In this document: one piece after another, positions 51,144 to 64,000 of the stretch
How positions within the stretch are numbered: the first letter of the stretch is position 1
How the letters are laid out: each line of letters starts with the position of its first letter
Assembly (NCBI RefSeq): GCF_004328075.1
Contig: NZ_SJFN01000022.1
Span: 1-64,000 of the forward strand
From: Siculibacillus lacustris
GTDB lineage: Bacteria > Pseudomonadota > Alphaproteobacteria > Rhizobiales > Ancalomicrobiaceae
Length of the DNA: 64,000 bases
Direction of reading: 5' to 3'
The notes under the pieces: generated by a model
The model's input: the letters and a program-made list of their open reading frames with translations, nothing else
Told to the model about the DNA's origin: nothing
Database searches by the model: none
Translations under genes and position numbers: made by a program

Positions 51144-51515
51144 TCAGGCGGCCGGACGCAGGCAGGCGCCGATCTTGCCGAGCAGGCGTTCCATGTCGAC
51201 CGGTTTGGTGTCGAAGTCGGCACAGCCGACCGCCAGACTCTTGGCGCGATCGCTCGACAGGGCATGGGCGGTCAGCGTGATCACCGGGATATGCGCGGTA
51301 TCGGGATCGGCCTTGATGATCGTGGTCGCCTCCCAGCCGTCCATGTCGCCGAGCGCCACGTCCATCAGGATCACGTCGGGCGCCTCGGATTTGGCCATCG
51401 CCACCCCCGCCGGCCCATCGACCGCCAGACAGGTCACGAACCCGTGGCGCGCGAGGCGGCGCGACAGCATGTCGCGATTCAATTCGTTGTCTTCGACGAT
51501 CAGGATCTTAGCCAT
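51144..51515 (-). CDS. Single-domain response regulator (DivK/CheY-like)
   Basis: A 123-residue receiver domain with no output domain. The acidic pair is in IVEDNELN, the phospho-acceptor in VILMDVALGD (Asp about 52), Thr in ITLTAHA and Lys in DTKPVD. The N-terminus (MAKILIVEDNELNRDML) is of the DivK type. The gene overlaps the preceding sensor kinase by 8 bp, so the kinase is the obvious phosphodonor. Output must go through protein contacts. Confidence 0.9.
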   Translation of the reverse strand: MAKILIVEDNELNRDMLSRRLARHGFVTCLAVDGPAGVAMAKSEAPDVILMDVALGDMDGWEATTIIKADPDTAHIPVITLTAHALSSDRAKSLAVGCADFDTKPVDMERLLGKIGACLRPAA

Positions 51516-53007
51516 TCGCCACCATCGCCATCACTGGAGTGTCGCTCTCGGCATCGTCGTCGATGCTCTTCGAATACCGCTGGGCGCCGGCCAACTGGCC
51601 GACCGGGGTCACCGCCGGAGCCGCGCGTCCCGCCGGCAGGACGATCGTGAAGCGACTGCCTTTTCCGACTTCGGTCTCCACGCTCACCGACCCGCCCATC
51701 AAGTGGCACAGCTTCTGGGTCAGGGCCAGCCCGATCCCGGTGCCGCCGTATTTGGCGTTGGTCAGGTCGTCGCCGACGCTGAACTGTTCGAACAGCCACG
51801 GCAGTTCGCCGGCCGGGATGCCGGGGCCGTCGTCGACCACTTCGAAGGCCACCGCGTCGCCGTCCGGCCCGTCGATGCGTCGGACGATCACGTCGACATG
51901 ACCGTCGCGGGTGAACTTCACGGCGTTCTCGATGACGTTGAGCAACACGCACTGGATCTTCGGCATGTCGCCGATCATCAGCTCGGGGCTGCCCTCGAGA
52001 TGCAGGCCGATCCGGTTGCGGTGCTCCTGCGCCAGCGTCTCCAGCCCATCGACGACCGAGGTCAGGAGCTTCTTCACCGCGAAGGTCTCGTTGAAGAACT
52101 CGACGTGCCCGGCTTCGAGCTTGGAAAGATCGAGGACGTTGTTGACCAGCCGCAGCAGGTGCTGGCCCGACGACAGGATCTTGCGGAAGTCGCTCGAATT
52201 CGAATGGTCGCCGGTGTCTTCGGCTTCCTCGAGCAGCATCTGGCTGTAGCCGATCACCGCATTGAGCGGCGTGCGCAACTCGTGACTCATCTTGGCCAGG
52301 AATTCCGATTTGGCGGTACTGGCCCGCTCCGCATCGGCCGCGGCGCGCCGCAGGTCGCTCGCCGTGTCGAGATGGCGCCGCATCTCCTGCTCGATCTCCG
52401 ACTGCGAGGCCAGCGCCCGCGCGTAATAGACCGCCATCATCGACACGTAGAGCGCCGAGGCGCAGGTCGAGATCAGGCCGAGGACCTGGATGTCGGCGAG
52501 CGGGATGCCGTTGTCGGGCGGCGGCAGGACATAGTAGGTGACGCCGAACACTGCCAGGTTGGCGAAGAACTGGATCAGCACGGCGTTGCGCAGCTTGCGC
52601 GAATTGCCGATGTAGAAGAACGCCAGCAGCGGGATCGTCAACACCCACGACAGGGTCGGCGACGTCACCGCGCCGTTGAAGTAGCAGCTCCACAGGATGC
52701 AGAAGATCAGGTTCTCGATCGACAGCATCGCCAGCAGATCGTAGCGCACCTTCATCTTCAGCAGCGGCGGGAACACCCAGAATCCGGTGATCGACGCCGC
52801 CAGCACGACGATGTCCCACCCGGGTGTCGGGCTGACGATCCACAGCGAGATCGGCACCGTGTTGCCGAGGAACGGCCCGCACAGATGGCTGATCAGGAAC
52901 AGTCGCGCGAGTTTGCGCTGATTCTTGTCGTTGGCCATCGTCGGCGGAATGAACCAGTCGACGATGTGGCCCAACCGCGCCGCGACGGTATGTGAATAGG
53001 AATCCAT
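51508..53007 (-). CDS. Six-transmembrane sensor histidine kinase (sensor 1 of the oxoamine-synthase cluster)
   Basis: A 499-residue kinase. The N-terminal 200 residues contain six hydrophobic segments with short loops and no large periplasmic domain. A coiled linker (205-235) is followed by HisKA with KMSHELRTPLN (His242) and HATPase (NVIENAVKF, DDGPGIPAGEL, GGTGIGLAL). ATG 53007 is preferred, with GAGAGGCGGGG upstream. The membrane part shares blocks with the kinase at 55734 (FIP near residue 20; AR-F-HL-GP; FN-SP-L-W then FFY), so the two are paralogous. Small-molecule sensing of the CqsS/LqsS kind fits the six-segment layout and neighbour, but is not proven. Confidence 0.9.
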   Translation of the reverse strand: MDSYSHTVAARLGHIVDWFIPPTMANDKNQRKLARLFLISHLCGPFLGNTVPISLWIVSPTPGWDIVVLAASITGFWVFPPLLKMKVRYDLLAMLSIENLIFCILWSCYFNGAVTSPTLSWVLTIPLLAFFYIGNSRKLRNAVLIQFFANLAVFGVTYYVLPPPDNGIPLADIQVLGLISTCASALYVSMMAVYYARALASQSEIEQEMRRHLDTASDLRRAAADAERASTAKSEFLAKMSHELRTPLNAVIGYSQMLLEEAEDTGDHSNSSDFRKILSSGQHLLRLVNNVLDLSKLEAGHVEFFNETFAVKKLLTSVVDGLETLAQEHRNRIGLHLEGSPELMIGDMPKIQCVLLNVIENAVKFTRDGHVDVIVRRIDGPDGDAVAFEVVDDGPGIPAGELPWLFEQFSVGDDLTNAKYGGTGIGLALTQKLCHLMGGSVSVETEVGKGSRFTIVLPAGRAAPAVTPVGQLAGAQRYSKSIDDDAESDTPVMAMVANG

Positions 53008-53070
53008 CGTCCCCGCCTCTCGCTCGCCCCCCGGGCCCGCAGGCTTTGGACGATCGGAGCACGCCCTCAC

Positions 53071-53085
53071 TTAAATTCGAGTAAA
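53071..53085 (-). promoter_or_regulatory. CtrA-like box upstream of sensor 1
   Basis: TTAA-ATTCGAG-TAAA, a 7-of-8 match to TTAA-N7-TTAA, 64 bp upstream of the sensor-1 ATG. Confidence 0.45.
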
Positions 53086-53248
53086 TCCGCCGCAAATCGG
53101 CCCCGAGCGGCGGCCCGCCGGCGCGCCCTCGGCGGCGGCCGGCGGCGGTCGGGCGATTCGTCCTGCGGGTCAGCCGACAGGATGACCCAGGGTATTCGAG
53201 CAAGTTGACGTGGTAAATATTAATCATTCAAAAAACGAGCGGATCCAT

Positions 53249-53263
53249 TTAACTCTCGTTTAA
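53249..53263 (+). promoter_or_regulatory. CtrA-like box upstream of the oxoamine synthase
   Basis: TTAA-CTCTCGT-TTAA is an exact match to the CtrA core TTAA-N7-TTAA, 59 bp upstream of the synthase ATG. TTAA is rare in DNA of this composition. Confidence 0.6.
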
Positions 53264-53321
53264 GTGGACCTAGCGTAATGATCACCCACGTCGAACGCAA
53301 AACGGGACGGAGTTGGAAAAA

Positions 53322-54650
53322 ATGATTAACACGCGCTTCATCAAGACAAATCCCGAAGCTCTCACGGGAAGCATGCGCGATTTCCGCGTCCAGTCTGGGG
53401 CCGATCTACTTCAGCGCGGTGACAAGTTCTTCCACTGGCAGAATACCCGCCGTGAAAATGGCCTGTGGCCCTTCTCGCGCTCCACCCAGGCCGGCCCCGG
53501 CACGGTCTGCGATGCCGCCGACGATCGTGGCAATCCCATCCACGGCGTGAACTTCGCTTCGCAGGACTACCTCAGCCTGTCGGCCCATCCGGTGATGCGG
53601 GCGGTGGCGATCGAGACCATCCGCAGCCACGGCGTCCACTCCGCCGGCTCATCGGCCCTGGTCGGCAACACCAATCTGTCGGTCGAGCTCGAGCGGCGCA
53701 TCGCCGACTATCTGCAGATGGAGGAGGCGATCCTCTACCCGACGGGTTGGGCCGCCGGCTACGGCATCATCCGCGGCCTGGTGCGCTCCGCCGACCACAT
53801 CGTCATGGACCAGCTGAGCCACGTCTGTCTGCAGGAGGGCGCCAACGCCGCCACCCGCAACATCCATCAGTTCCGCCACCTCGACGTCGAGCATTGCCGC
53901 CGCAAGCTGGCCGGCATCCGCGCCTCCGACACCGAGAACGGCATCCTGGTGGTGACCGAGGGTCTGTTCTCGATGGACTCCGACACCCCGAACATCGCCG
54001 CCCTGCAGGAGGTCTGCCACGAATACGGCGCCACCCTGGTGGTCGACGTCGCCCACGACTTCGGCGCCCTCGGCGACGGCCGCGGCCACATCGGCCTGCA
54101 GGCCATGCTCGGCCGGGTCGATCTGGTGATGGGCAGCTTCTCCAAGACCTTCGGCTCGAACGGCGGCTTCGTCGCCTGCCACAGCCGGGCGATCAAGGAA
54201 TACCTGCGCTTCTACAGCCCCTCGGCGACCTTCTCCAACGCCCTGTCGCCGATGCAGGCGGCGGTGGTCCTGAAGGCCCTCGACATCGTCGACTCCGCCG
54301 AAGGCGTCGAACTGCGCGCCAAGCTGCTGCACAACGTCAACCTGCTGCGCAGCACCCTGACCGCCAACGGTCTCGAGTACTACGGCGATCCCTCGGCGAT
54401 CGTCGCCGTCAAGATGGGCACCGAAGGTCTCGCCCGTCTGGTCAGCCGCCGGCTGCCGGTGCTCGGCCTGCTCTCCAACCTGGTCGAGTACCCGGCCGTC
54501 GCCAAGGGCGCCGCCCGCTTCCGCATGCAGGTGATGGCCGGCCACACCGAGGACAACATCGTCCGCGCCGTGGCGATCATGAAACAGGCGGTGACCGAGG
54601 CCCGCGCCGAGCTCGAACAGGTCGGCGAGACCCGCGCCGCCGCCGCCTGA
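53322..54650 (+). CDS. Alpha-oxoamine synthase (CqsA/LqsA/BioF/SPT superfamily)
   Basis: A 442-residue PLP enzyme of the family that condenses an acyl-CoA with an amino acid. Conserved elements are NFASQDYLSLS, the glycine/serine loop HSAGSSALVGNTNLSVELE, the PLP-ring residues VVDVAHDFGALG (Asp242, His245) and the Schiff-base lysine in GSFSKTFGSNGGF (Lys275). The ATG at 53322 follows GGAG at 9 bp; the TTG three codons earlier has no spacing. It is not among biotin or haem genes but sits between two six-TM sensor kinases, as CqsA and LqsA synthases are linked to their sensors. An alpha-hydroxyketone-like signal is therefore plausible. A lipid role of the serine-palmitoyltransferase kind is the alternative. 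Confidence 0.85.
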   Translation: MINTRFIKTNPEALTGSMRDFRVQSGADLLQRGDKFFHWQNTRRENGLWPFSRSTQAGPGTVCDAADDRGNPIHGVNFASQDYLSLSAHPVMRAVAIETIRSHGVHSAGSSALVGNTNLSVELERRIADYLQMEEAILYPTGWAAGYGIIRGLVRSADHIVMDQLSHVCLQEGANAATRNIHQFRHLDVEHCRRKLAGIRASDTENGILVVTEGLFSMDSDTPNIAALQEVCHEYGATLVVDVAHDFGALGDGRGHIGLQAMLGRVDLVMGSFSKTFGSNGGFVACHSRAIKEYLRFYSPSATFSNALSPMQAAVVLKALDIVDSAEGVELRAKLLHNVNLLRSTLTANGLEYYGDPSAIVAVKMGTEGLARLVSRRLPVLGLLSNLVEYPAVAKGAARFRMQVMAGHTEDNIVRAVAIMKQAVTEARAELEQVGETRAAAA

Positions 54651-54680
54651 GCCGCGACATCGCAACCCTCTCGAAACGGC

Positions 54681-54711
54681 AAAGCCCCCGACGCGATGCG
54701 GCGGGGGCTTT
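54681..54711. terminator. Terminator after the oxoamine synthase
   Basis: AAAGCCCCCG (54681-54690) pairs perfectly with CGGGGGCTTT (54702-54711), a classical bidirectional terminator between convergent genes. Confidence 0.88.
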
Positions 54712-54736
54712 CGGCCGTCGATTCAGGGTCGATCGA

Positions 54737-55480
54737 TCAGAACTTGTAGGCGAGCGACAGGTGCAGCGTGTCGGCGACCTGGGCATGGATCCCGGTCAGG
54801 CCGGGGAATGCGACCTGCGAGACGTTGTGGGTCTTGCCGTAGTCGGAATGGCGATAGTCGACACCGGCGATCCAGTTGTCGGTCAACGCCAGATCGGCAC
54901 CGCCGCCCACCGTCCAGCCGGTGCGCGTGTTGGTGAAGGTCTCCTTGGTCGACGTCGGCAGATAGACGTAAGTGTTCTCGATGTTGGCGAAGGCCACGCC
55001 GCCGGTGCCATAGACCAGCACCCGCTCGAAGCCGACACCGAGACGCCCGCGCACCGACCCTTGCCAGTGGGTGTTGTCGCGGCCCTTGCCGATCGGCGCA
55101 TCGCGGAAGCCGCCGTTGACGTTGGTCGCTTCGAAGTCGCCTTCGATACCGGCGACGAACAGCCCCAACTGGTAATTGGCGCCGAGGCGGGCGCCGATCG
55201 AGCCGCCGGTCGGGTTGAAGTCGTAGACCAGTCCGGTCGGCGCACCGTTGGCGGTGTAGGTCTCCACCGCGTGATCGTTCTGCCAGGTGTGGCCGGCGAT
55301 CAGCCCGCCGTAGACGCCCGACCAGGAGAACGGTTCCGGCGCCACGGGCACCACCTTCGGCCCGCGCAGGGCGAGATCGGCGCCTTGGGCAGCGGTCGAA
55401 GCGAGAGCGAACGTCATCGCGACCCCCGTCAAGATCGCCGCGAGGTGGCGGCCACAATGGGCAATGTCCGATCGACTCAT
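54737..55480 (-). CDS. Outer-membrane beta-barrel protein (Omp25/Opa-like)
   Basis: A 247-residue porin-like protein. A signal peptide (about 1-35, ending AAQGAD) is followed by alternating beta strands with FSWSGVYGGLIAGHTW at the start of the barrel, YGTGGVAFANIENTY, the TGWTVGGGADLALTDNW repeat and a terminal LSLAYKF. This is the surface-antigen barrel common in Hyphomicrobiales. ATG 55480 is preferred, with GGAG 8 bp upstream. A CtrA-like box lies 49 bp upstream. Confidence 0.87.
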   Translation of the reverse strand: MSRSDIAHCGRHLAAILTGVAMTFALASTAAQGADLALRGPKVVPVAPEPFSWSGVYGGLIAGHTWQNDHAVETYTANGAPTGLVYDFNPTGGSIGARLGANYQLGLFVAGIEGDFEATNVNGGFRDAPIGKGRDNTHWQGSVRGRLGVGFERVLVYGTGGVAFANIENTYVYLPTSTKETFTNTRTGWTVGGGADLALTDNWIAGVDYRHSDYGKTHNVSQVAFPGLTGIHAQVADTLHLSLAYKF

Positions 55481-55528
55481 CCGTGTCACTCCGATCTTCT
55501 CGTGTGACCCGATCCTAGGGTGACATGG

Positions 55529-55543
55529 TTAACGGGAGCTTTA
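55529..55543 (-). promoter_or_regulatory. CtrA-like box upstream of the outer-membrane protein gene
   Basis: On the minus strand TAAA-GCTCCCG-TTAAC, one mismatch from the full TTAA-N7-TTAAC consensus. Confidence 0.45.
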
Positions 55544-55733
55544 CGCGCTCGCGCACAGTCGCCGTTCCGCGGAAATCCGCCACGGATCCCCGACCATCGA
55601 CCCACCACCTGACGTCGCGTCCACGCAGACGATCGCGGAAGCTGTGCCGTTCGTCGTCGCACCACACGAAATTTTAAACTTCGTCTATTTAAATGTGACC
55701 GTCGTCTCGGACCATCAGCGAAGTCAGGCACCG

Positions 55734-57152
55734 ATGTTGAATCAGGCTCTGTGGGTCATCGACTCGTTCATTCCCGGCAAGGCGACGATGGAACGCGCCG
55801 ACCTCAGCGTCGCGCGCAATTTCGTCTTCACACACCTGATCGGGCCGACCCTTTCGCAGGTCATCGGCGTCTATCTCTACCGCACCGATCCCGAGCCCGG
55901 CTTCGCCTGCTGGACGATGATCACCTGCATCACCCTGTTCTGGGTGCTGCCGGTCATCTACCGCTGGACCGGAAATCTGCCGATGGTCTCGATTCTGTCG
56001 GTGCAGTTGCTGACCTTCACCTCGCTGTTCGGCACGTTCAACTACGGTGGCGTCAGTTCACCGTTCCTGCCGTGGCTGAGTGTCGCCCTGTTGCTCGGCT
56101 TCTTCTATCTCGCCGGCCGCACCCTGATCGTCCTCGGCCTGTTCGCCGTGAACTTCCTGGTGTTCGTCATCGCCTATCTGCACTTCGGTTTCCCCGAGAT
56201 CGTGCCGCTGACCCAGCTCGAGAGCGTCGGCTGGATCTCGATCCTGTCGGCCACGGTCTACATGTCGTGGATGGCGATCTACTACGCCAACATCATGTCG
56301 ATGCGCTCCGAACTCGAAATCGAGATGGAGCGCCATCGCAAGACCACCGAGAATCTGGTCGAGACCAAGAGTCGCGCCGACGACGCCAGCCGCGCCAAGT
56401 CGATCTTCCTCGCCAAGATGAGCCACGAATTCCGCACGCCCTTGAACGCCATCATCGGCTACAGCGAACTGGTGTTGGAGACCCTCGAATTCGAGGCCGG
56501 CTCGCCCCAGACCGTGTCAGACCTCAACCGCATCAACGCCTCCGGCAAACATCTGCTGGCGCTGATCAACGACATCCTCGACCTCTCCAAGATCGAGTCC
56601 GACACCGTCGAGTTGACCGCCGTCGAATTCAGCCTCGACCGCTTCTGCAACGACCTCGCCCAGACGGTCGAGCCGATGGTCGCCAAGAACTTCAACACCC
56701 TGTCGCTCCAGGGCGTCGGCCGCCTCGGCACCGTCGTCGCCGACGAGACCAAGCTGCGCCAGATCCTGCTCAACCTGCTGAGCAACGCCGCCAAGTTCAC
56801 CAACCGCGGCGCGGTCACACTGGGGGTCAAGCGGCAGAAGATCAGCGACCTCGACTGGGTCGAGTTCCGCGTCGTCGACACCGGCATCGGCATCGCTTCG
56901 ACCGAACTCCAGAAGCTCTTCGCCAATTACCAGCAGGCCTCGGCCTCGACCTCGCGCAAATACGGCGGCACCGGCCTCGGTCTGGCGATCAGCCAGCGGC
57001 TCAGCGCCTTCATGGGCGGCAGCATCGCCGTGACCAGCGAGCCGGGCCGCGGCTCGTGCTTCACCGTACGGGTGCCGGTGACCGGCCCGGCCGAGCCGAC
57101 GTCGTCCCTGTTCTTCGACTCGTCCCCCAAGTCTCTTGCCACAGTGATTTGA
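55734..57152 (+). CDS. Six-transmembrane sensor histidine kinase (sensor 2 of the oxoamine-synthase cluster)
   Basis: A 472-residue kinase with six hydrophobic segments in the first 190 residues, a coiled linker, HisKA with [11 protein letters not shown] (His231) and HATPase ([25 protein letters not shown]). Shared blocks with sensor 1 include VID-FIP near the N-terminus, AR-F-THL-GP at about 27-38 and [14 protein letters not shown] at about 102-115. ATG 55734 is chosen because the AT-rich stretch with TTAA half-sites at 55674 and 55689 just upstream looks like a promoter. Four bases separate it from the GGDEF-EAL gene, its likely partner. Confidence 0.9.
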
Positions 57153-57156
57153 CCCC

Positions 57157-59070
57157 ATGTCCTTGCAAACCGCGATCCGATCGTCCGTCGCGCCGACCGA
57201 AGCCCCGAGCACCGGCCTCGACGCTCCGCCGCGCCTGTTGATCGTCGACGACATCGGCGACAACCGCACCATCCTGTCGCGACGCTTTCTGCGACGCGGC
57301 TATGAGGTGATGGAGGCCGAGAGCGGTGCCGAAGCGCTGGCGCTGATCGACCGCGAATCCTTCGATGCGGTGCTGCTCGACGTCATGATGCCGGGCATCG
57401 ACGGCATCGAGGTGCTGCGGCGCATCCGGTCCACCCTGTCGCCGCTCGATCTGCCGGTGATCATGGTGACCGCCAAGAGCCAGAGCGAGGACATCGTCGA
57501 GGCCCTCGAGCTGAAGGCCAACGACTACGTCACCAAGCCCGTCGACTTCGCCGTGGCGCTCGCCCGGGTCACCGCCCAGATCGACCGCAAGCGCGCCGAA
57601 GACGAGATCAAGCGCGCCAACGCCAGCCTCAAGGACGTCAACGACAGCCTGGAGAAGCGCATCGCCGAGCGCACCGTGGCGCTGGTCGAGGCCAATCGCC
57701 AGCTCAAGGAAGAGATCCAGCAGCGCCAGCGCTCCGAGGCCGAGATCCGCCAGCTCGCCCTGCACGACGCTCTGACCGGGCTCGCCAATCGCGTGCTGTT
57801 CCGCGACGAGTTGGAGAAGGTGCTGGCCACCGCGACCGGCGACACCGAACGCCTCGCCGTGCTGTTCATCGATCTCGACGGCTTCAAGGGGGTCAACGAT
57901 TCCCTCGGCCATTCGATCGGCGACGTCCTGCTCAAGGACATCGCCCAGGATCTGCGCGGCCTGATCGCCGGTCGCGACGTCATCGCCCGCCTCGGCGGCG
58001 ACGAATTCGCCATTCTCCACCATTGCGACGGCCGCCCCGACAGCGCCGCCCGCCTCGCCGAGCGGATCATCCGCACCGTCGCGGCCACCCGCAGCATCGA
58101 CGGCCAGATGTTGGCGGTCGGTGCCAGCGTCGGCATCGTCGTCACATCGGGCGCCGGCAAGACTCCGGAAGAGCTGCTGCGCAACGCCGACCTCGCCATG
58201 TACAAGGCCAAGGCCGACGGTCGCGGCATCTACCGCGTCTTCGATCCGGCGATGGACGCCATGGTCCAGGAACGCCGTCAGCTCGAGGTCGAGATGCTGA
58301 CCGCCTTCGTCCAGGGCCAGTTCCGCGTCTATTACCAGCCGCTGATCTCGCTCGGCAGCAACCGCATCTGCGGCTTCGAGGCGTTGCTGCGCTGGCAGCA
58401 TCCGGAACGCGGCCTGATCTCGCCGGTCGACTTCGTGCCGGTCGCCGAAGACACCGGGCTGATCGTCCAGCTCGACGACTGGGTGCTGCGCGAAGCCTGC
58501 ATGGAAGCCGCCAAGTGGGGCGACGACATCCGAATCGGCGTCAACGTCTCGCCGGTCCAATTCACCCGCGGCAACATCGTCAATTCGGTGATCGGCGCCC
58601 TCGCGGTGTCCGGTCTCAAGCCGAGCCGGCTGGAGATCGAAATCACCGAATCGGTGCTGCTCGAAGGGTCCGAGCAGACCCTCAAGATGCTGACCCAGCT
58701 CCGCCAGATCGGCGCCCGCATCGTCATGGACGACTTCGGCACCGGCTATTCGAGCCTCGGCTATCTGCGCGCCTTCCAGTTCGACAAGATCAAGATCGAT
58801 CAGTCCTTCGTCCGCGACATCGCCGGGACCACCGGCAACGGCGCGATCGTCCAGGCGATTGCCGAACTCGGCCGCAAGTTCGGCATCGCCACCACCGCCG
58901 AAGGCGTCGAGACCCAGGAGCAGTTGCAACTGGTGATCAGCGAGGGCTGTTCGGAGGCCCAGGGCTGGATCTTCAGCCAGCCGATCCCGGCCAGCAAGAT
59001 TCTGGCGCTCCTGACCATGCAGAGCGCGGTCAACGTCGAACTGCTGAAACAGTGCGTCGGGCTCGCCTGA
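57157..59070 (+). CDS. Response regulator with GGDEF and EAL domains
   Basis: A 637-residue c-di-GMP enzyme. Receiver domain (25-140; Asp75 in VLLDVMMPG, Lys in VTKPVD), a coiled coil (about 143-200), GGDEF domain with an intact active site (280-284, RLGGDEF) and EAL domain with E408-[15 protein letters not shown] and the later TTAEGVET. Both catalytic motifs look intact. No RxxD inhibitory site is visible before GGDEF. Phosphorylation by sensor 2 would set synthesis or breakdown of c-di-GMP, and so adhesion or motility. Confidence 0.94.
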
Positions 59071-59080
59071 GCGCCGCCGA

Positions 59081-60403
59081 TCACCGCGCCGGTTCGATCG
59101 TCAGGCACCGCTTGCCGTCGTGACCGCAGGTCGCACCCGCGGCGAGTTCGATCGCCAGCGTCAGCCGTCCCGCGGCCAGCATCGGCCCGATCGCCGGATC
59201 CGCGGTGAGTGCGGCTCGCGCCGCGGCGATCACCGCCTTCGACCGCCACGGCGCCGGCACCCCGAGCGTCAGCCGCAGCGCCGCCGGTGCGCCCGGCGTC
59301 AGCGCCGCCGCCACGTCGCAGATCTGCGGCAGGTCGAACAGCACCGCGTCGAGCCGGGCGAGCGTCGGGGTCGCCCCGGCGTCTCCCATCGCGCCGTCGT
59401 CGAGCCGCCCGGTCGGCTCCAGTCGCCGCAACACCGAGCCGCAGGCGCAGGGGCCGGCGACGAGGTGGCCGCGATCGCCGGTGCGGTAGCGCACCAGCGG
59501 CGTCGCCCGCCGCGAGAGCGTGGTCACCACGATCTCGCCCTCGACGCCGTCGGCGAGCCGCTCGCCACTCCTCGGATCGACCACCTCGATCAGCAGATCG
59601 GCCTCGCGCAGGTGCAGGCCCCCATGGGCCGCGCAGTCGACCGCACCGCCCCAACCGGTCTCGGTCATCCCCCAATGGTCATGGACCTCGGCGCCCCAGG
59701 CCGCAGCGAGGCCGCGCCGCAGGCTCGCCGCCGCCGGTTCCGAACTGGTCAGCACGGCGCGCAGCCGGATCGGCGTTCCGCCGTCGGCGAGCGACACCCG
59801 CGCCGCCGCCAGCAGTCGCACCGGCGGCCCGGCGGCGACCGTCGCGCGACCCTCGCGCAGGATCCCCGCGACCTCTTCGGCGCTCGCCGCCGCCGGAATC
59901 GCCAGGGCCGTCGCCCCCAGCCGCGCCACCGCTTCGGTGAGCGTCGCCCCGACGCTCGCCGGTCGTTCGCCGGCAAACAAGATCGCCACCCGGTCGGAGG
60001 CCGCGGTGAACAGTCCGAGGCCGTGGGCGAAGAAATCGAGGGTCGCCTCGCGATCCTCCGCGGTGAAGCCGATGCGCTTGGGGGCCCCACGCGACCCCGA
60101 GGTCGGCAGCGTCACCACCCGCTCGACCATCCCTTGCGACACGGTGAGGAACGGCGGGTCGCCGCGCGCCAGATCCTCGGGCGTGGTGAAGGGCAGCCGC
60201 GCGAGATCGTCGAGCGACGCGAGGGGGGCGGCGAGCTCCGCCGCCCGGCGGCGGTAGAACGGGCTGTGGACTCGGGCATGGGCGATCGTCGCGTTCAGCC
60301 GGGCGAGCTGCGCCGCCTCGAGGCGCCCCCGATCGAGCGGCCCGGCGAGCCCCAGCCGCACCGCCACCCAGGCGTCGAGGGTGGCCATCGGCGCCACCGT
60401 CAC
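59081..60403 (-). CDS. AMP-dependent CoA-ligase-like protein (DVU_1553-type)
   Basis: A 440-residue adenylate-forming protein resembling phenylacetate-CoA ligase. It has the phosphate loop LPTSGSRGAPKRI, the adenine motif DHWGMTETG, and YRTGDRG near the C-terminus, which ends with a Cys/His stretch (CGHDGKRC). The GTG at 60403 overlaps the upstream stop by 4 bp; an ATG 15 bases further in is possible. It is the last gene of the overlapping radical SAM cluster. The acid it activates is unknown. The family name is from memory of cluster composition. Confidence 0.8.
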   Translation of the reverse strand: MTVAPMATLDAWVAVRLGLAGPLDRGRLEAAQLARLNATIAHARVHSPFYRRRAAELAAPLASLDDLARLPFTTPEDLARGDPPFLTVSQGMVERVVTLPTSGSRGAPKRIGFTAEDREATLDFFAHGLGLFTAASDRVAILFAGERPASVGATLTEAVARLGATALAIPAAASAEEVAGILREGRATVAAGPPVRLLAAARVSLADGGTPIRLRAVLTSSEPAAASLRRGLAAAWGAEVHDHWGMTETGWGGAVDCAAHGGLHLREADLLIEVVDPRSGERLADGVEGEIVVTTLSRRATPLVRYRTGDRGHLVAGPCACGSVLRRLEPTGRLDDGAMGDAGATPTLARLDAVLFDLPQICDVAAALTPGAPAALRLTLGVPAPWRSKAVIAAARAALTADPAIGPMLAAGRLTLAIELAAGATCGHDGKRCLTIEPAR

Positions 60404-61833
60404 GCCCCCGCCTCGGCCGGAGACCGATAGAGGCTGCGGCCGTCGGTGGCGGTGAGGTTGTAGGCGCAGAACGGGATCAGGCGCCCGCCGTCGGCGACCA
60501 CATGGACGTGGCACGACCGCAGCCGCTCGAGATCGAGGGTCCAGGCGTCCTGGAAGGCCATGCCCGACAGTCCGAGGGTGCGGGCCCGGTCCACCAGCAC
60601 CGCGTCGAAGCCGTCGCGCGGCCCCTCCGCCGCGGCTGGCGGCAAGGTCCATTGCCCGGCGACCGCGCGCCGCGCCCGCGCCACGTCGGGGCTCGCCCGC
60701 ACCGACCCGTCGTCGGCCGCGCCACCGCAGCACGACGTCGTCACGGCGGGGGCCGGCGTGCCACAGCACGCAGCGCGCATCCCCGGCCGCGGCGCCAACC
60801 GCCCGGCGTCGTCGACGCGGAAGCGGCCGCTGAACGAACAGAACGGATTCTCCGCCGACCCCGCCCGGAAATCCTCGAAGCGCAACGCCCCGCCGGCATG
60901 GGCGACCAGCGCCTCGACGATCTCCGGCAAGGTGATCCGTGCCGCCGTCGCCGGTTCGCCGCGGCAGCGTCCGAAATGCGCCACCGGCTGGAAATGCACC
61001 GCCCGCACCGTCGGCATGTGGGCGATCGCGAAGTCGACGATCGCACCGATCTGCCCGTCGTTGACCCCCGGCACCACCGTCGGCACCAGCACCACCCCGA
61101 CCCCGGCCTCGCCGCAAGCGGCGATCGCCCGGGCCTTGAGCCGCATCAGCCGGGCGCCGCGCAGGGCCCGGTGTACGCCGTCGTCGACGCCGTCGAACTG
61201 CAGGAACACGCAATCGAGCCCGGCCGCCACCAGATCGCGCAGATAGTCGGGGTCGCAGGCCAGCCGGACGCCGTTGCTGTTGATCTGCACGAAGTCGAAG
61301 CCGCGCGCCCGGATCCGTCGGACGATCTCCGGCAGATCGTCGCGGATCGTCGGTTCACCGCCGGAGAGCTGAACATGGACCTGCCCGCCGGCCGCCACCA
61401 GCGTGTCGAGCCGCGCATCGATCTCGGCGAGCGACAGATCGCGGCCGCCCTGCCCTACCGCCGCGTAACACACCGGGCAGGCGAGATCGCAGCGCGAGGT
61501 GACCTCGAGCAGCACGCAGCAGCTCTGTTGGCGATGATCGGCGCACAGGCCGCAGTCGTGGGGACAGCCCCGCTCGACCGGCGTGGCGACCGCCCGCGGC
61601 CGCGCCGCGGCGACCGAAGCCGCGCTCCAGGCGCGATGGCTGGCGAGCCCGCGCCATACCGGCGCCGAGAAGGAACCGTGGTCGGGACAGGTCTTGACCA
61701 GCACGATGGCGTCGCCCTCGACGCACCGCTCGGCCGGGACGGTGGCGAGGCACACCGGGCAGACGCTCTCGGTGGCGCTCGGGGCGAGGGCGTCCGCGCT
61801 GGCCGGCGGGGCGGGAAAATCGATCAAGGTCAT
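60400..61833 (-). CDS. Radical SAM protein, TrsS-type
   Basis: A 477-residue radical SAM protein. An N-terminal Cys-rich region (CPVCLATVPAERC, then TCPDHGSF, and GCPHDCGLCADH) precedes the radical SAM core with CDLACPVC (CX3CX2C) and the SAM-binding GGEP. The C-terminal part has paired cysteines (RAACCGTP and TTSCCGG) that could bind a further cluster. The N-terminal pattern recalls tetraether-lipid-synthase-like radical SAM enzymes. ATGA overlaps link it to genes on both sides. Reaction unknown. Confidence 0.82.
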   Translation of the reverse strand: MTLIDFPAPPASADALAPSATESVCPVCLATVPAERCVEGDAIVLVKTCPDHGSFSAPVWRGLASHRAWSAASVAAARPRAVATPVERGCPHDCGLCADHRQQSCCVLLEVTSRCDLACPVCYAAVGQGGRDLSLAEIDARLDTLVAAGGQVHVQLSGGEPTIRDDLPEIVRRIRARGFDFVQINSNGVRLACDPDYLRDLVAAGLDCVFLQFDGVDDGVHRALRGARLMRLKARAIAACGEAGVGVVLVPTVVPGVNDGQIGAIVDFAIAHMPTVRAVHFQPVAHFGRCRGEPATAARITLPEIVEALVAHAGGALRFEDFRAGSAENPFCSFSGRFRVDDAGRLAPRPGMRAACCGTPAPAVTTSCCGGAADDGSVRASPDVARARRAVAGQWTLPPAAAEGPRDGFDAVLVDRARTLGLSGMAFQDAWTLDLERLRSCHVHVVADGGRLIPFCAYNLTATDGRSLYRSPAEAGA

Positions 61834-62960
61834 GGGCTCGCCCTCCGGTCGGCGGCCGTCGTCACCGCGGTGACCGCCCGCAGCATCGCCCGCGCGTCGT
61901 CGTGTCGCCGCCGCGCCCCGGCGAGCGCCGCAGGGTCGTCGCGGAAGCGAGCGAAGGCGGCGGCGAAGCGCGCCTCGAGCGAGGTGTCGGCGGTGCCGGC
62001 GACCAGTTTGTCGGCGAGATGGACCACCACCGCGGCGTCGATCGGGTCGCCGTCCGCAAACGGCAGCGTCATGTGCCGCGCCACCACCGCCGCCACGCCC
62101 GCGAACCCGAATTCCGCGAGGATCCGCGCCCCGGCCTCGGCGTGATCCGGCTGCCCTTTGGCGAGATCGTGCAGTTCGGCCGCCGCAGCGATCAGGTCGC
62201 GGTCGAGAATCACGCCGGCGTCGGCGAGCCCGTCGGCGATCGCCACCGCCCGCGCCGCGACCGCCCGCCCGTGGGCGCGCACCGGAGCGGCGACCGCGCA
62301 GCGATCGAACAGCGCCGCGATCTCGGCCGGATCCAGGAGATCGCGCCGCCGCGCCGCCGCGGCGAGCCGCGCATGGTCCTCCGGCCGGTCCATGTCCCAC
62401 AGGCAGGCGTGATCGATCACCGGAAGGTCGAGCGATTGGGCGGCGTGCCGGGCCAACACCGCGGCGAGCCCGCCGACCCCGTCGCCGCCGAGGATCTCGG
62501 CGAACAGCCGCCGGTCGATCGCCGGCGGATGACCGCGCTGGCCCTCGAAGGTCGGATGGACCACCAGGACATCGCCCCGCGCCGCCCTCGCGGCGATCGC
62601 CGCGAGGGTCGCCGGCCGCACCAAGGGCACGTCGACCGGCAGCACCAGCGCCGCTGTGATCGTCGCCGGCAGCGCCGCCAGCCCGCAGGTCAGGCTCGAA
62701 TACATGCCGCGATCGGGATCGGGATTGACCACCGCGCTCACCCCGAGGTCGGCGAGCACCGGCGCCAGCCCCGCCGCGCGATGGCCGATCACCACCCGGA
62801 TCTCGTCGATGCCGCCGGCCCGCAGCGCGGCGACGACATGGCCGATCACCGTGGTGCCGGCGAGCGGCAGCAGCGGCTTGAACGCCCCCATCCGCGACGA
62901 TCGGCCGGCCGCCAGCACCACCGCGGCGACCGGCGCCGCGCCGGCACCTGCCCCGCTCAT
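61830..62960 (-). CDS. MobA-like NTP transferase fused to an HD domain (DVU_1551-type)
   Basis: A 376-residue two-part protein. Residues 1-200 form a nucleotidyltransferase with VVLAAGRSSRMGAFKPLLPL and the acidic LVLPVDVPLV, close to MobA/MocA enzymes that transfer CMP or GMP to a cofactor. Residues about 220-360 carry an HD phosphohydrolase pattern (RAHGRAVA, AAELHDLAKG, ARHM, VVHLADKLV). It overlaps both neighbours by 4 bp. It may modify a cofactor or a ligand of the radical SAM partner; the substrate is unknown. Confidence 0.83.
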   Translation of the reverse strand: MSGAGAGAAPVAAVVLAAGRSSRMGAFKPLLPLAGTTVIGHVVAALRAGGIDEIRVVIGHRAAGLAPVLADLGVSAVVNPDPDRGMYSSLTCGLAALPATITAALVLPVDVPLVRPATLAAIAARAARGDVLVVHPTFEGQRGHPPAIDRRLFAEILGGDGVGGLAAVLARHAAQSLDLPVIDHACLWDMDRPEDHARLAAAARRRDLLDPAEIAALFDRCAVAAPVRAHGRAVAARAVAIADGLADAGVILDRDLIAAAAELHDLAKGQPDHAEAGARILAEFGFAGVAAVVARHMTLPFADGDPIDAAVVVHLADKLVAGTADTSLEARFAAAFARFRDDPAALAGARRRHDDARAMLRAVTAVTTAADRRASP

Positions 62961-63415
62961 CGCCGGCCCTCCGCGTCGGGCGGTTCGGCGACGTCGAAAC
63001 CGTGGTCGGCGAGGGTGTCGCAGAGCTGCTCCCACACCTCCAGGATCAGCGCCGGGCAGCGCTCGGCCTTGAGGACCGGATCGAACTTCATGATGTCGGC
63101 GCAGTCGATGCCGCCCCAGCGCTCGTGGGCGGCGGCATGGAACCAGCCGGTGAAGGCATCGAGCGCCGCCGCGAAGCGCGGATCATCGGCCTCGCTCTCC
63201 CCGGCCCGCCCGGCGACCAGACCGAGCACACAGCAGCCGCCCGACAGGGCGCCGCAGTTGAAGCCCTGGCCCATGCCGTTGGCCAACCCCGACATGGCGC
63301 GCACCAGATCCGGATCGTCGCGTCCCTGCGCCTCCAGCGCCAGTCTGACCAGGACGTGGCTGCACCTGAGGCCGGAGAGCAGCAACTCGGCGATGCGGAA
63401 GCCGGCGTCGGTCAT
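62957..63415 (-). CDS. C_GCAxxG_C_C-type redox protein (DVU_1555-type)
   Basis: A 152-residue protein with well-spaced cysteines: LRCSHV, then GMGQGFNCGALSGGCCVLG, IDCADI, ERCPAL and QLCD. This resembles the C_GCAxxG_C_C family, thought to bind FeS or metal clusters. The helical sequence has no signal peptide. ATGA overlaps tie it to the methyltransferase and the NTP transferase. Confidence 0.78.
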   Translation of the reverse strand: MTDAGFRIAELLLSGLRCSHVLVRLALEAQGRDDPDLVRAMSGLANGMGQGFNCGALSGGCCVLGLVAGRAGESEADDPRFAAALDAFTGWFHAAAHERWGGIDCADIMKFDPVLKAERCPALILEVWEQLCDTLADHGFDVAEPPDAEGRR

Positions 63416-64000
63416 GCCCTCCCCTCCCCGGCCGCCGACGTCGCGCGCGGGGCGTCGTCGCGATCGACGATCGCCAGGAAATAGCCCGGCGCCGCCAGCC
63501 GCACCGCTTCCGCGGTCAGGCCGCAGGACCCGCCCCACAGCGCTTCCAGCGATCCGTTGGCGAAGACGAAGCGGGCGACCCAGTCGCGCAGCACTTCCGA
63601 GCGATCCTCGAACCATTCGACGCGGAACCCGGCCTCGGCGAGATCCCCCGACAGCCGGTGCCAGGAGACCAGCGGCGACAGATCGGCGCTGGCCGTCACC
63701 TGATCGGGCCCGGCGGCCCGGCGATAGACGTCGCTCAAGGCCAGCCGCCCGCCCGGTCGCAGCACCCGGCGCCATTCGGCGAGCGTCCGCCGCCGGTCGG
63801 CCATGGTCGACAAGGCGCATTCGGAGACGATCCCGTCGACGCTCGCGGTGGCGAAGGGCAGTGCGTCGCCCGAGGCGAGCAGGATGCCGGCGCCGCCGAC
63901 CCGCCGCCGCGCCGCTTCCACCGCCGCCGCATCGACGTCGACTCCGACCGCCAGCAGGCCGCGCCGCATCATCGCCGCGACGCTGCCCCCCTGACCGCAG
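63412..64000 (-). CDS. SAM-dependent methyltransferase (DVU_1556/TrsM-type), partial
   Basis: The gene enters from beyond the window end; about 196 codons are visible. The first visible residues, CGQGGSV, are the SAM-binding glycine motif I; GVDVD (motif I acid) and the later GDALPFATASVDGIVSECALS and LRPGGRLALSDVYR follow the class I methyltransferase order. The substrate is unknown. It overlaps the next gene by 4 bp and probably follows more cluster genes outside the window. Confidence 0.82.
   Translation of the reverse strand, partial: CGQGGSVAAMMRRGLLAVGVDVDAAAVEAARRRVGGAGILLASGDALPFATASVDGIVSECALSTMADRRRTLAEWRRVLRPGGRLALSDVYRRAAGPDQVTASADLSPLVSWHRLSGDLAEAGFRVEWFEDRSEVLRDWVARFVFANGSLEALWGGSCGLTAEAVRLAAPGYFLAIVDRDDAPRATSAAGEGRA

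Follow-up and report, generated by a model that had tools for sequence, protein, structure and literature searches.

We analysed a 64,000-nucleotide stretch of DNA from Siculibacillus lacustris (contig NZ_SJFN01000022.1; below, the window means this whole stretch), which ends in five tightly packed genes, one of them encoding the radical S-adenosylmethionine (SAM) protein TrsS. We found that these genes are the tail of a nine-gene minus-strand operon, XdhC-AOR-D-Z-M-C-N-S-L, built around a molybdenum-containing aldehyde oxidoreductase (AOR); S is TrsS, and D is a flavin/iron–sulfur protein. We favour a reading, with a probability of about 0.5, in which D provides a flavin and CCG-cluster electron route for the AOR, and the Trs genes serve a small molecule on which D would act.

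A nine-gene operon around an aldehyde oxidoreductase

The operon continues past the window end on the same strand of the same contig, up to position 70530 (Table 1). Coordinates above 64000 continue the numbering of the window, which is 1-64000 of this contig (C15); C15 extends to 88191, in a source genome of 5.02 Mb and 99 contigs. Eight of the nine proteins pass curated NCBIfam cut-offs, the exception being the XdhC-like protein (NF045664). M scores 169 against a cut-off of 155 as cut by the window end, and 213.5 when read to 64086, 24 codons short of its start. With starts corrected, six exact 4-bp overlaps chain the seven genes from D to L, the GTG start of L overlapping the TrsS stop; ahead of this chain lie AOR and XdhC, with gaps of 128 and 102 bp, respectively. 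The nine genes are probably co-transcribed.

Table 1. Genes of the operon (NCBIfam scores in bits, with cut-offs)
Gene	Coordinates	Strand	Assignment	NCBIfam score/cut-off	Pfam
L	59081..60403	-	DVU_1553-family AMP-dependent (PaaK-like) acyl/aryl-CoA ligase; GTG start	NF045666, 388/300	PF00501
S (TrsS)	60400..61833	-	Tes-like radical SAM protein, Cys form	NF045646, 564/490	PF04055 + PF23545
N	61830..62960	-	DVU_1551-family MocA/MobA-like NTP transferase fused to HD	NF045665, 408/315	PF12804 + PF01966
C	62957..63415	-	DVU_1555-family C_GCAxxG_C_C protein	NF045669, 145/103	PF09719
M	63412..64158 (in window to 64000)	-	DVU_1556-family class I methyltransferase	NF045667, see text
Z	64155..64373	-	Zinc-ribbon protein, DVU_1557 family	NF045645, 93.6/60
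D	64370..66703	-	FAD/[4Fe-4S]/double-CCG protein	NF045663, 925/530
AOR	66832..69588	-	Mop-type molybdenum aldehyde oxidoreductase	NF045668, 1516/1100
XdhC	69691..70530	-	XdhC-like protein	NF045664, 295/350 (below cut-off)

An earlier note, made from the window's sequence, had described a five-gene cluster from ligase to methyltransferase, joined by 4-bp overlaps and matching the DVU_1551-1556/TrsS set. Its gene identities stand: all five lie on the minus strand, each exceeds the cut-off of its NCBIfam model (DVU_1551, DVU_1553, DVU_1555, DVU_1556 or TrsS), and every junction among them measures exactly 4 bp. The five-gene extent does not stand, as the window cuts M short and the operon has nine genes; the further members that the note expected beyond 64000 were found there on the same strand (Z, D, AOR and XdhC).

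The family models thus place the locus in a named but functionally unexplained gene set. Among the matches listed in the open-licence literature (cited here and below from excerpts) there were only table rows: for TrsS in a selenoprotein review (PMC13188914), for DVU_1559 (DVU1559) as aldehyde oxidoreductase (Aor) (PMC10920352), for DVU1558 as a cysteine-rich/iron–sulfur protein (PMC3114432) and for C_GCAxxG (PMC9312934). This agrees with the earlier remark that no established function was known for the set. The families carry near-consecutive NCBIfam accessions, so the grouping is probably known to curators. We found neither the link between the flavin unit of D and the AOR nor an AOR-free version of the set described in the open-licence literature, most subscription journals being outside this scope.

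Distribution and synteny

Relatives of TrsS were collected by scanning one genome per species (84,980 species); the best 80 of 352 stretches were kept, so the sample leans to close relatives. The 80 loci span Alpha- and Betaproteobacteria, Acidobacteria, Bacillota, Chloroflexi, Spirochaetes and delta-type proteobacteria (Desulfobulbus, Syntrophobacter and Geobacteraceae), and the gene order of the operon recurs in other phyla. The earlier note had placed the set in strict anaerobes. This is doubtful, because the loci include Rhodoplanes, Pleomorphomonas, Telmatospirillum and Propionivibrio, some of which we take to be facultative.

At the 46 TrsS loci of at least 21 kb, the neighbours are L (46), D, Z and C (45 each), AOR and M (44 each), XdhC (38) and N (35), followed by a CobC-like histidine phosphatase (31) and a regulator (15). 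Both loci of the 46 without a nearby AOR (L103 and L134) have an AOR elsewhere in the genome. The protein distances of TrsS correlate with the distances of D (r 0.91), of N, L, C and M, and of AOR (0.77), matched by 0 of 500 permutations each, with relatedness not removed.

TrsS is rare in the samples of Alphaproteobacteria, where the earlier note had called its presence notable: it exceeded the cut-off in 1 of 289 genomes of a class sample and 1 of 349 of a phylum sample, each time the window genome itself, though in 4 of 15 genomes of the window's own family. Of 13 family genomes examined for AOR and TrsS, three had both and ten neither; another, added later (G309), had both. In G297, XdhC, AOR, D, M, C, N, S and L follow the order of the S. 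lacustris operon. In G309 the genes run from XdhC to S, and the 20 kb examined contain no ligase. One contig of G298 bears M-C-N-S, again without a ligase in the stretch examined, while AOR and XdhC lie on two other contigs, both ending in AOR.

A scan of viral contigs with TrsS gave zero relatives, and a plasmid search gave six records at 33-42% identity. The CobC-like histidine phosphatase (L080:12394-13008; 144.7 bits, cut-off 162.9) occurs in 40 of the 80 loci, often right behind the ligase; behind the window ligase there is none, and the next gene lies on the opposite strand. Eight loci (L098, L107, L109, L115, L121, L126, L129 and L142) carry a gene inserted between N and S that, by reading, resembles cysteine desulfurase. 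Two small proteins of L107 had no NCBIfam match.

Two modules joined in one operon

In an alignment of 61 rows, D has one conserved Rossmann motif (115-120) and no second Rossmann or NAD(P)H domain; a putative FAD-closing segment lies near 236-272, by reading of the sequence. There follow a dicluster and two CCG sets, called by what we take to be the C..CC..CXXC rule (C446/477/478/514/517 and C560/594/595/628/631, each in at least 95% of rows). The CCG half of D matches TfrB, LdhH and GlpC, and resembles proteins that pass electrons to disulfides or quinones.

We took a census of AOR and TrsS in 247 genomes from the phylum of G646, a Desulfobulbus metagenome-assembled genome (MAG), presumably Desulfobacterota, scoring up to three candidates per genome for AOR and up to six for TrsS. 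AOR exceeded its cut-off in 19 genomes, TrsS in 25 and both in 18 (Fisher p ~9e-21, kinship ignored). For 24 of the 80 loci, picked mostly for an AOR missing or cut nearby, we also searched the genome for AOR. Twenty had one over cut-off, G639 and G640 had high-scoring fragments at contig edges, and G635 had a C-terminal piece at a contig edge plus a weaker paralogue; in the MAG G632, this search found no AOR.

Seven census genomes carry TrsS with no AOR over cut-off. In one of them, G757, the AOR is split over contigs, with one end beside Trs genes; among 17 genomes of its class, G757 itself gave the best identity to a Desulfovibrio gigas AOR fragment (78%). Of the other six, G865, G784, G728 and G761 gave zero matches to the XO-family AOR model at E 1e-20 (genome completeness not given), and G778 and G805 gave solely distant ones. 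G692, whose split TrsS is below cut-off (432.7 bits), also has an AOR-less core but is not counted among the six.

In these six AOR-less genomes D is split into a dicluster-CCG protein, which also matches HdrC, and a small tail protein, followed by Z, M and S. In the stretches examined, L was found in five of the six and C in one. The FAD unit of D is absent from all six. In contrast, 64 of 68 AOR-bearing loci contain it, and a contig end cuts the AOR itself in the remaining four. The FAD unit thus largely follows AOR, and the CCG part largely follows TrsS. Since AOR-less genomes keep Z, M, TrsS, mostly L and the CCG part, without the FAD unit, the S. lacustris operon joins two modules. The reverse case is G894 (L223), the sole AOR genome without TrsS, which has A-D-Z-M-C-L on one contig and is a natural TrsS-minus variant.

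The separate tail protein of the AOR-less locus L208 had no Pfam match. Neighbours of the AOR-less cores include, in L206, a BadF-type ATPase and two HGD-D (2-hydroxyacyl-CoA dehydratase-like) proteins; those of L208 look similar by reading of translations. L210 has a RACo-like protein and L211 a molybdopterin oxidoreductase.

The AOR and its cofactor genes

The AOR aligned at full length with the D. gigas enzyme, DgAOR (1sij residues 5-905), as a single chain with two [2Fe-2S] domains and molybdenum domains. The GVGE motifs of the two, with the catalytic Glu (presumably residue 869), also align. DgAOR has two [2Fe-2S] centres and molybdopterin cytosine dinucleotide (MCD) but no flavin domain (PMC3877041, PMC10223205). 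Its electron acceptor, flavodoxin, was 'proposed' in 2013 (PMC3877041) and 'putative' in 2023 (PMC10223205). As D adjoins AOR, and its flavin unit occurs mainly where AOR is present, D is a natural candidate for the missing flavin. An AOR-to-D electron route is plausible, and flow would probably run in that direction.

N scores 113.8 bits on the MocA model TIGR03310, missing its cut-off of 186.45, and passes its own family model. XdhC, together with the MocA-like N, is most likely responsible for completing the molybdenum cofactor of the AOR and for its insertion. The earlier note had named molybdenum cofactor insertion by the NTP transferase as a finding that would speak against its reading of the cluster. 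This applies in part: N resembles MocA and neighbours genes of a molybdenum enzyme, but the four genomes with zero matches to the XO-family AOR model also carry the TrsS core.

Could the accessory genes, including TrsS, all be AOR maturation factors that modify MCD or the polypeptide? The near-obligate TrsS–AOR linkage would fit such a role, as would the presence of XdhC and the MocA-like N within the operon, the recurrence of MoeA-, MoaC- and MoeB-like genes (identified by reading sequences) near some loci, and the structural similarity of the TrsS model to MoaA, which ranks second (Z 21.6). However, 6 of 25 TrsS genomes lack this AOR (four of them, of completeness not given, with zero matches to the XO-family AOR model at E 1e-20), and G894 keeps AOR without TrsS. 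In addition, MCD is seen, at up to 1.28 Å, in DgAOR isolated from D. gigas, and the excerpts of PMC10223205 speak of no modification; this argument presumes that D. gigas carries trsS. Because TrsS, M, Z and mostly L persist with the CCG half where AOR is absent, we consider a pure maturation role unlikely.

DgAOR acts on aromatic aldehydes (PMC10223205) and accepts long-chain ones (PMC3877041). The operon might therefore encode a catabolic route, in which AOR forms an (aromatic) acid, L joins this acid to CoA as a thioester, and the intermediates that follow are substrates of TrsS, M and D. L is PaaK-like, matching PaaK structures (4r1l etc.), with its ligase P-loop and adenylation residues conserved, and the BadF-type ATPase and HGD-D proteins beside the AOR-less core of L206 would also suit this explanation. 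We nevertheless find it quite unlikely. The set is common to many phyla while its flanking genes differ; no beta-oxidation family was recognised by eye among the recurrent neighbour families listed, whereas an ABC-transporter ATPase recurs (16 loci); and catabolism would be an unusual setting for a methyltransferase and a radical enzyme of the Tes type.

C has four invariant Cys (alignment of 39) and a confident, all-helical AlphaFold2 model, which had no match in the PDB at E 0.001 or better, so that its fold gives no clue to function.

TrsS resembles tetraether synthase

TrsS matches 7tol, a structure of tetraether synthase (Tes), at 246 bits. Its AlphaFold2 model (mean pLDDT 86.7) aligns with 7tom over 417 residues (Z 45.8, 2.8 Å). 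We compared its residues with the Tes ligands given in PMC9433317, the excerpts of which do not name the individual Cys ligands of the C-terminal cluster. The rubredoxin CX2C..CX2H site, the N-cluster Cys3His, the radical SAM CX3CX2C and the labile Met of the C-cluster are all kept. H47, H95, M420, C327, C436 and C451 of TrsS are each present in 89-90 of 90 rows, and the remaining ligand Cys in at least 95%.

It is possible, though very unlikely, that TrsS is a bacterial lipid-coupling enzyme like Tes, with AOR removing or providing the long-chain aldehydes of a membrane lipid. This would agree with the fold and ligands that TrsS shares with Tes, and with the acceptance of long-chain aldehydes by DgAOR. 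Against it, TrsS scores 318.7 on the Tes model, missing the cut-off of 450, and Tyr459 of Tes, its position mapped through the 7tol match, is found in 0 of 90 TrsS rows (V 65, I 13, T 8, E 2, N 1, gap 1). Also, TrsS sequences vary between the radical SAM core and the C-terminal cluster domain, where parts of the model have low confidence. In Tes itself, M439A and Y459 variants stay active, and the reaction goes via a sulfur–carbon bond on the C-terminal cluster; homologues have been noted in bacteria not known to make biphytanyl chains (PMC9433317).

We tested for selenocysteine and rejected it: there are zero in-frame TGA codons within the TrsS domain (83 hits, 80 loci), so these closest relatives lack the 'seleno' feature. 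Weak TrsS-like proteins of G461, G093, G201 and G730 were set aside as other Tes-like families; no cluster gene lies beside them, except for a weak ligase match (45.8 bits) in G461.

A possible electron route and its weak points

In our favoured reading, the AOR, of the D. gigas Mop type, would oxidise an aldehyde to the acid. Electrons would pass from its [2Fe-2S] centres to FAD in D, then to the D dicluster and the two HdrB-like CCG clusters, which may exchange them with a thiol/disulfide- or quinone-like small molecule. TrsS, M, L and Z are a separable module, mostly found together with the CCG part of D. As TrsS, M, Z and mostly L stay with the CCG half even without AOR, we infer that this module most likely makes or modifies the small-molecule partner of D, whose nature is conjecture, as is the modified cofactor or lipid suggested in the earlier note. 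The TrsS step would activate a C-H bond by Tes-type radical chemistry, via a sulfur intermediate on an auxiliary cluster.

Several observations weigh against this reading. The aldehyde-to-flavodoxin-to-H2 chain has been reconstituted with DgAOR (PMC10223205), so a generic carrier may suffice. The AOR cluster of G894 lacks TrsS, with no room for it between C and L and no TrsS match at E 1e-85 in the genome, which argues that TrsS is not strictly needed. Among the AOR-less genomes, the CCG partner in G761 is weakly similar (36 bits), and G728 has no ligase in the stretch examined. Five loci without a nearby AOR keep the FAD unit (L077, L093, L103, L118 and L128). The AOR search covered the genomes of four of these five: for L103, L118 and L128 it found AOR elsewhere in the genome, and for L093, where D is at a contig edge, it found none at E 1e-100. 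CCG proteins also serve quinones. The distance correlations described above may reflect common descent. Finally, FAD binding by D is predicted from motifs, and the activities of D, TrsS, M and L are likewise predictions.

A bolder version of the favoured reading, which we regard as rather doubtful, is that the Trs genes make a novel small redox carrier by a Tes-type radical reaction, methylation and acyl activation. D would then be its one-chain flavin/HdrBC-like reductase and the long-sought flavin partner of Mop-type AORs, and AOR-less bacteria would use the carrier with other donors.

Operon linkage and domain co-occurrence thus name D as a candidate natural acceptor of the textbook D. gigas AOR. 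TrsS, one Tes relative in bacteria, now has a largely fixed partner set, a linked enzyme of assayable activity, and natural variants without that enzyme. The two questions, the acceptor of AOR and the role of bacterial Tes relatives, become testable together.

Neighbouring genes

Farther upstream of XdhC lie a gene for an AcoR/DhaR-like sigma-54 regulator, a 2-hydroxyacid dehydrogenase gene and other genes. The regulator suggested a sigma-54 promoter before XdhC; the idea was rejected, as no site was found there in the window's genome. In other loci, 7 of 54 upstream stretches carry such a site, versus 127 of 2560 random stretches; of those seven loci, three have the regulator directly before AOR.

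In the window, 53313-54650 encodes a BioF/Kbl-type alpha-oxoamine synthase, which scores 175.7 bits on the model for alpha-hydroxyketone autoinducer synthase (cut-off 428). On either side lies a membrane histidine kinase (51508-53070 and 55644-57152); the two kinases look alike, and the second is followed by a receiver-GGDEF-EAL protein (57157-59070). Positions 51144-57152 are possibly a signalling island of the Lqs/Cqs type.

Comparison with known systems

The operon corresponds to the DVU_1551-1559/TrsS set of NCBIfam (NF045645, NF045646 and NF045663-NF045669), with eight of nine genes over the curated cut-offs and a recurring order. The differences are that the XdhC-like gene scores below its cut-off here, and that N lies between C and S in the window but after L and XdhC in several loci, for example L138 and L139. 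The AOR is like that of D. gigas (Mop; 1sij, 1vlb) in its full-length single-chain homology and GVGE motif. However, in the excerpts of PMC3877041 and PMC10223205 the D. gigas enzyme is studied on its own, flavodoxin being the partner proposed for it, whereas here the AOR shares an operon with D and the Trs genes. N shares the NTP transferase domain with MocA cytidylyltransferase (TIGR03310), but scores under its cut-off and carries a fused HD domain.

D has the dicluster and two CCG sets in common with CCG iron–sulfur proteins of the HdrBC, TfrB and GlpC type; unlike them, it fuses a GltD-like FAD unit, without the NAD(P)H domain, and a C-terminal tail into one chain. TrsS, in turn, has in common with Tes (GDGT-MAS; 7tol, 7tom) the fold, the rubredoxin-type site and the ligands of the N-terminal and radical SAM clusters, and keeps the labile Met and conserved Cys of the C-terminal cluster region. 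It differs from Tes in its score below the Tes cut-off, the replacement of Tyr459, a variable Cys-rich linker and its operon context.

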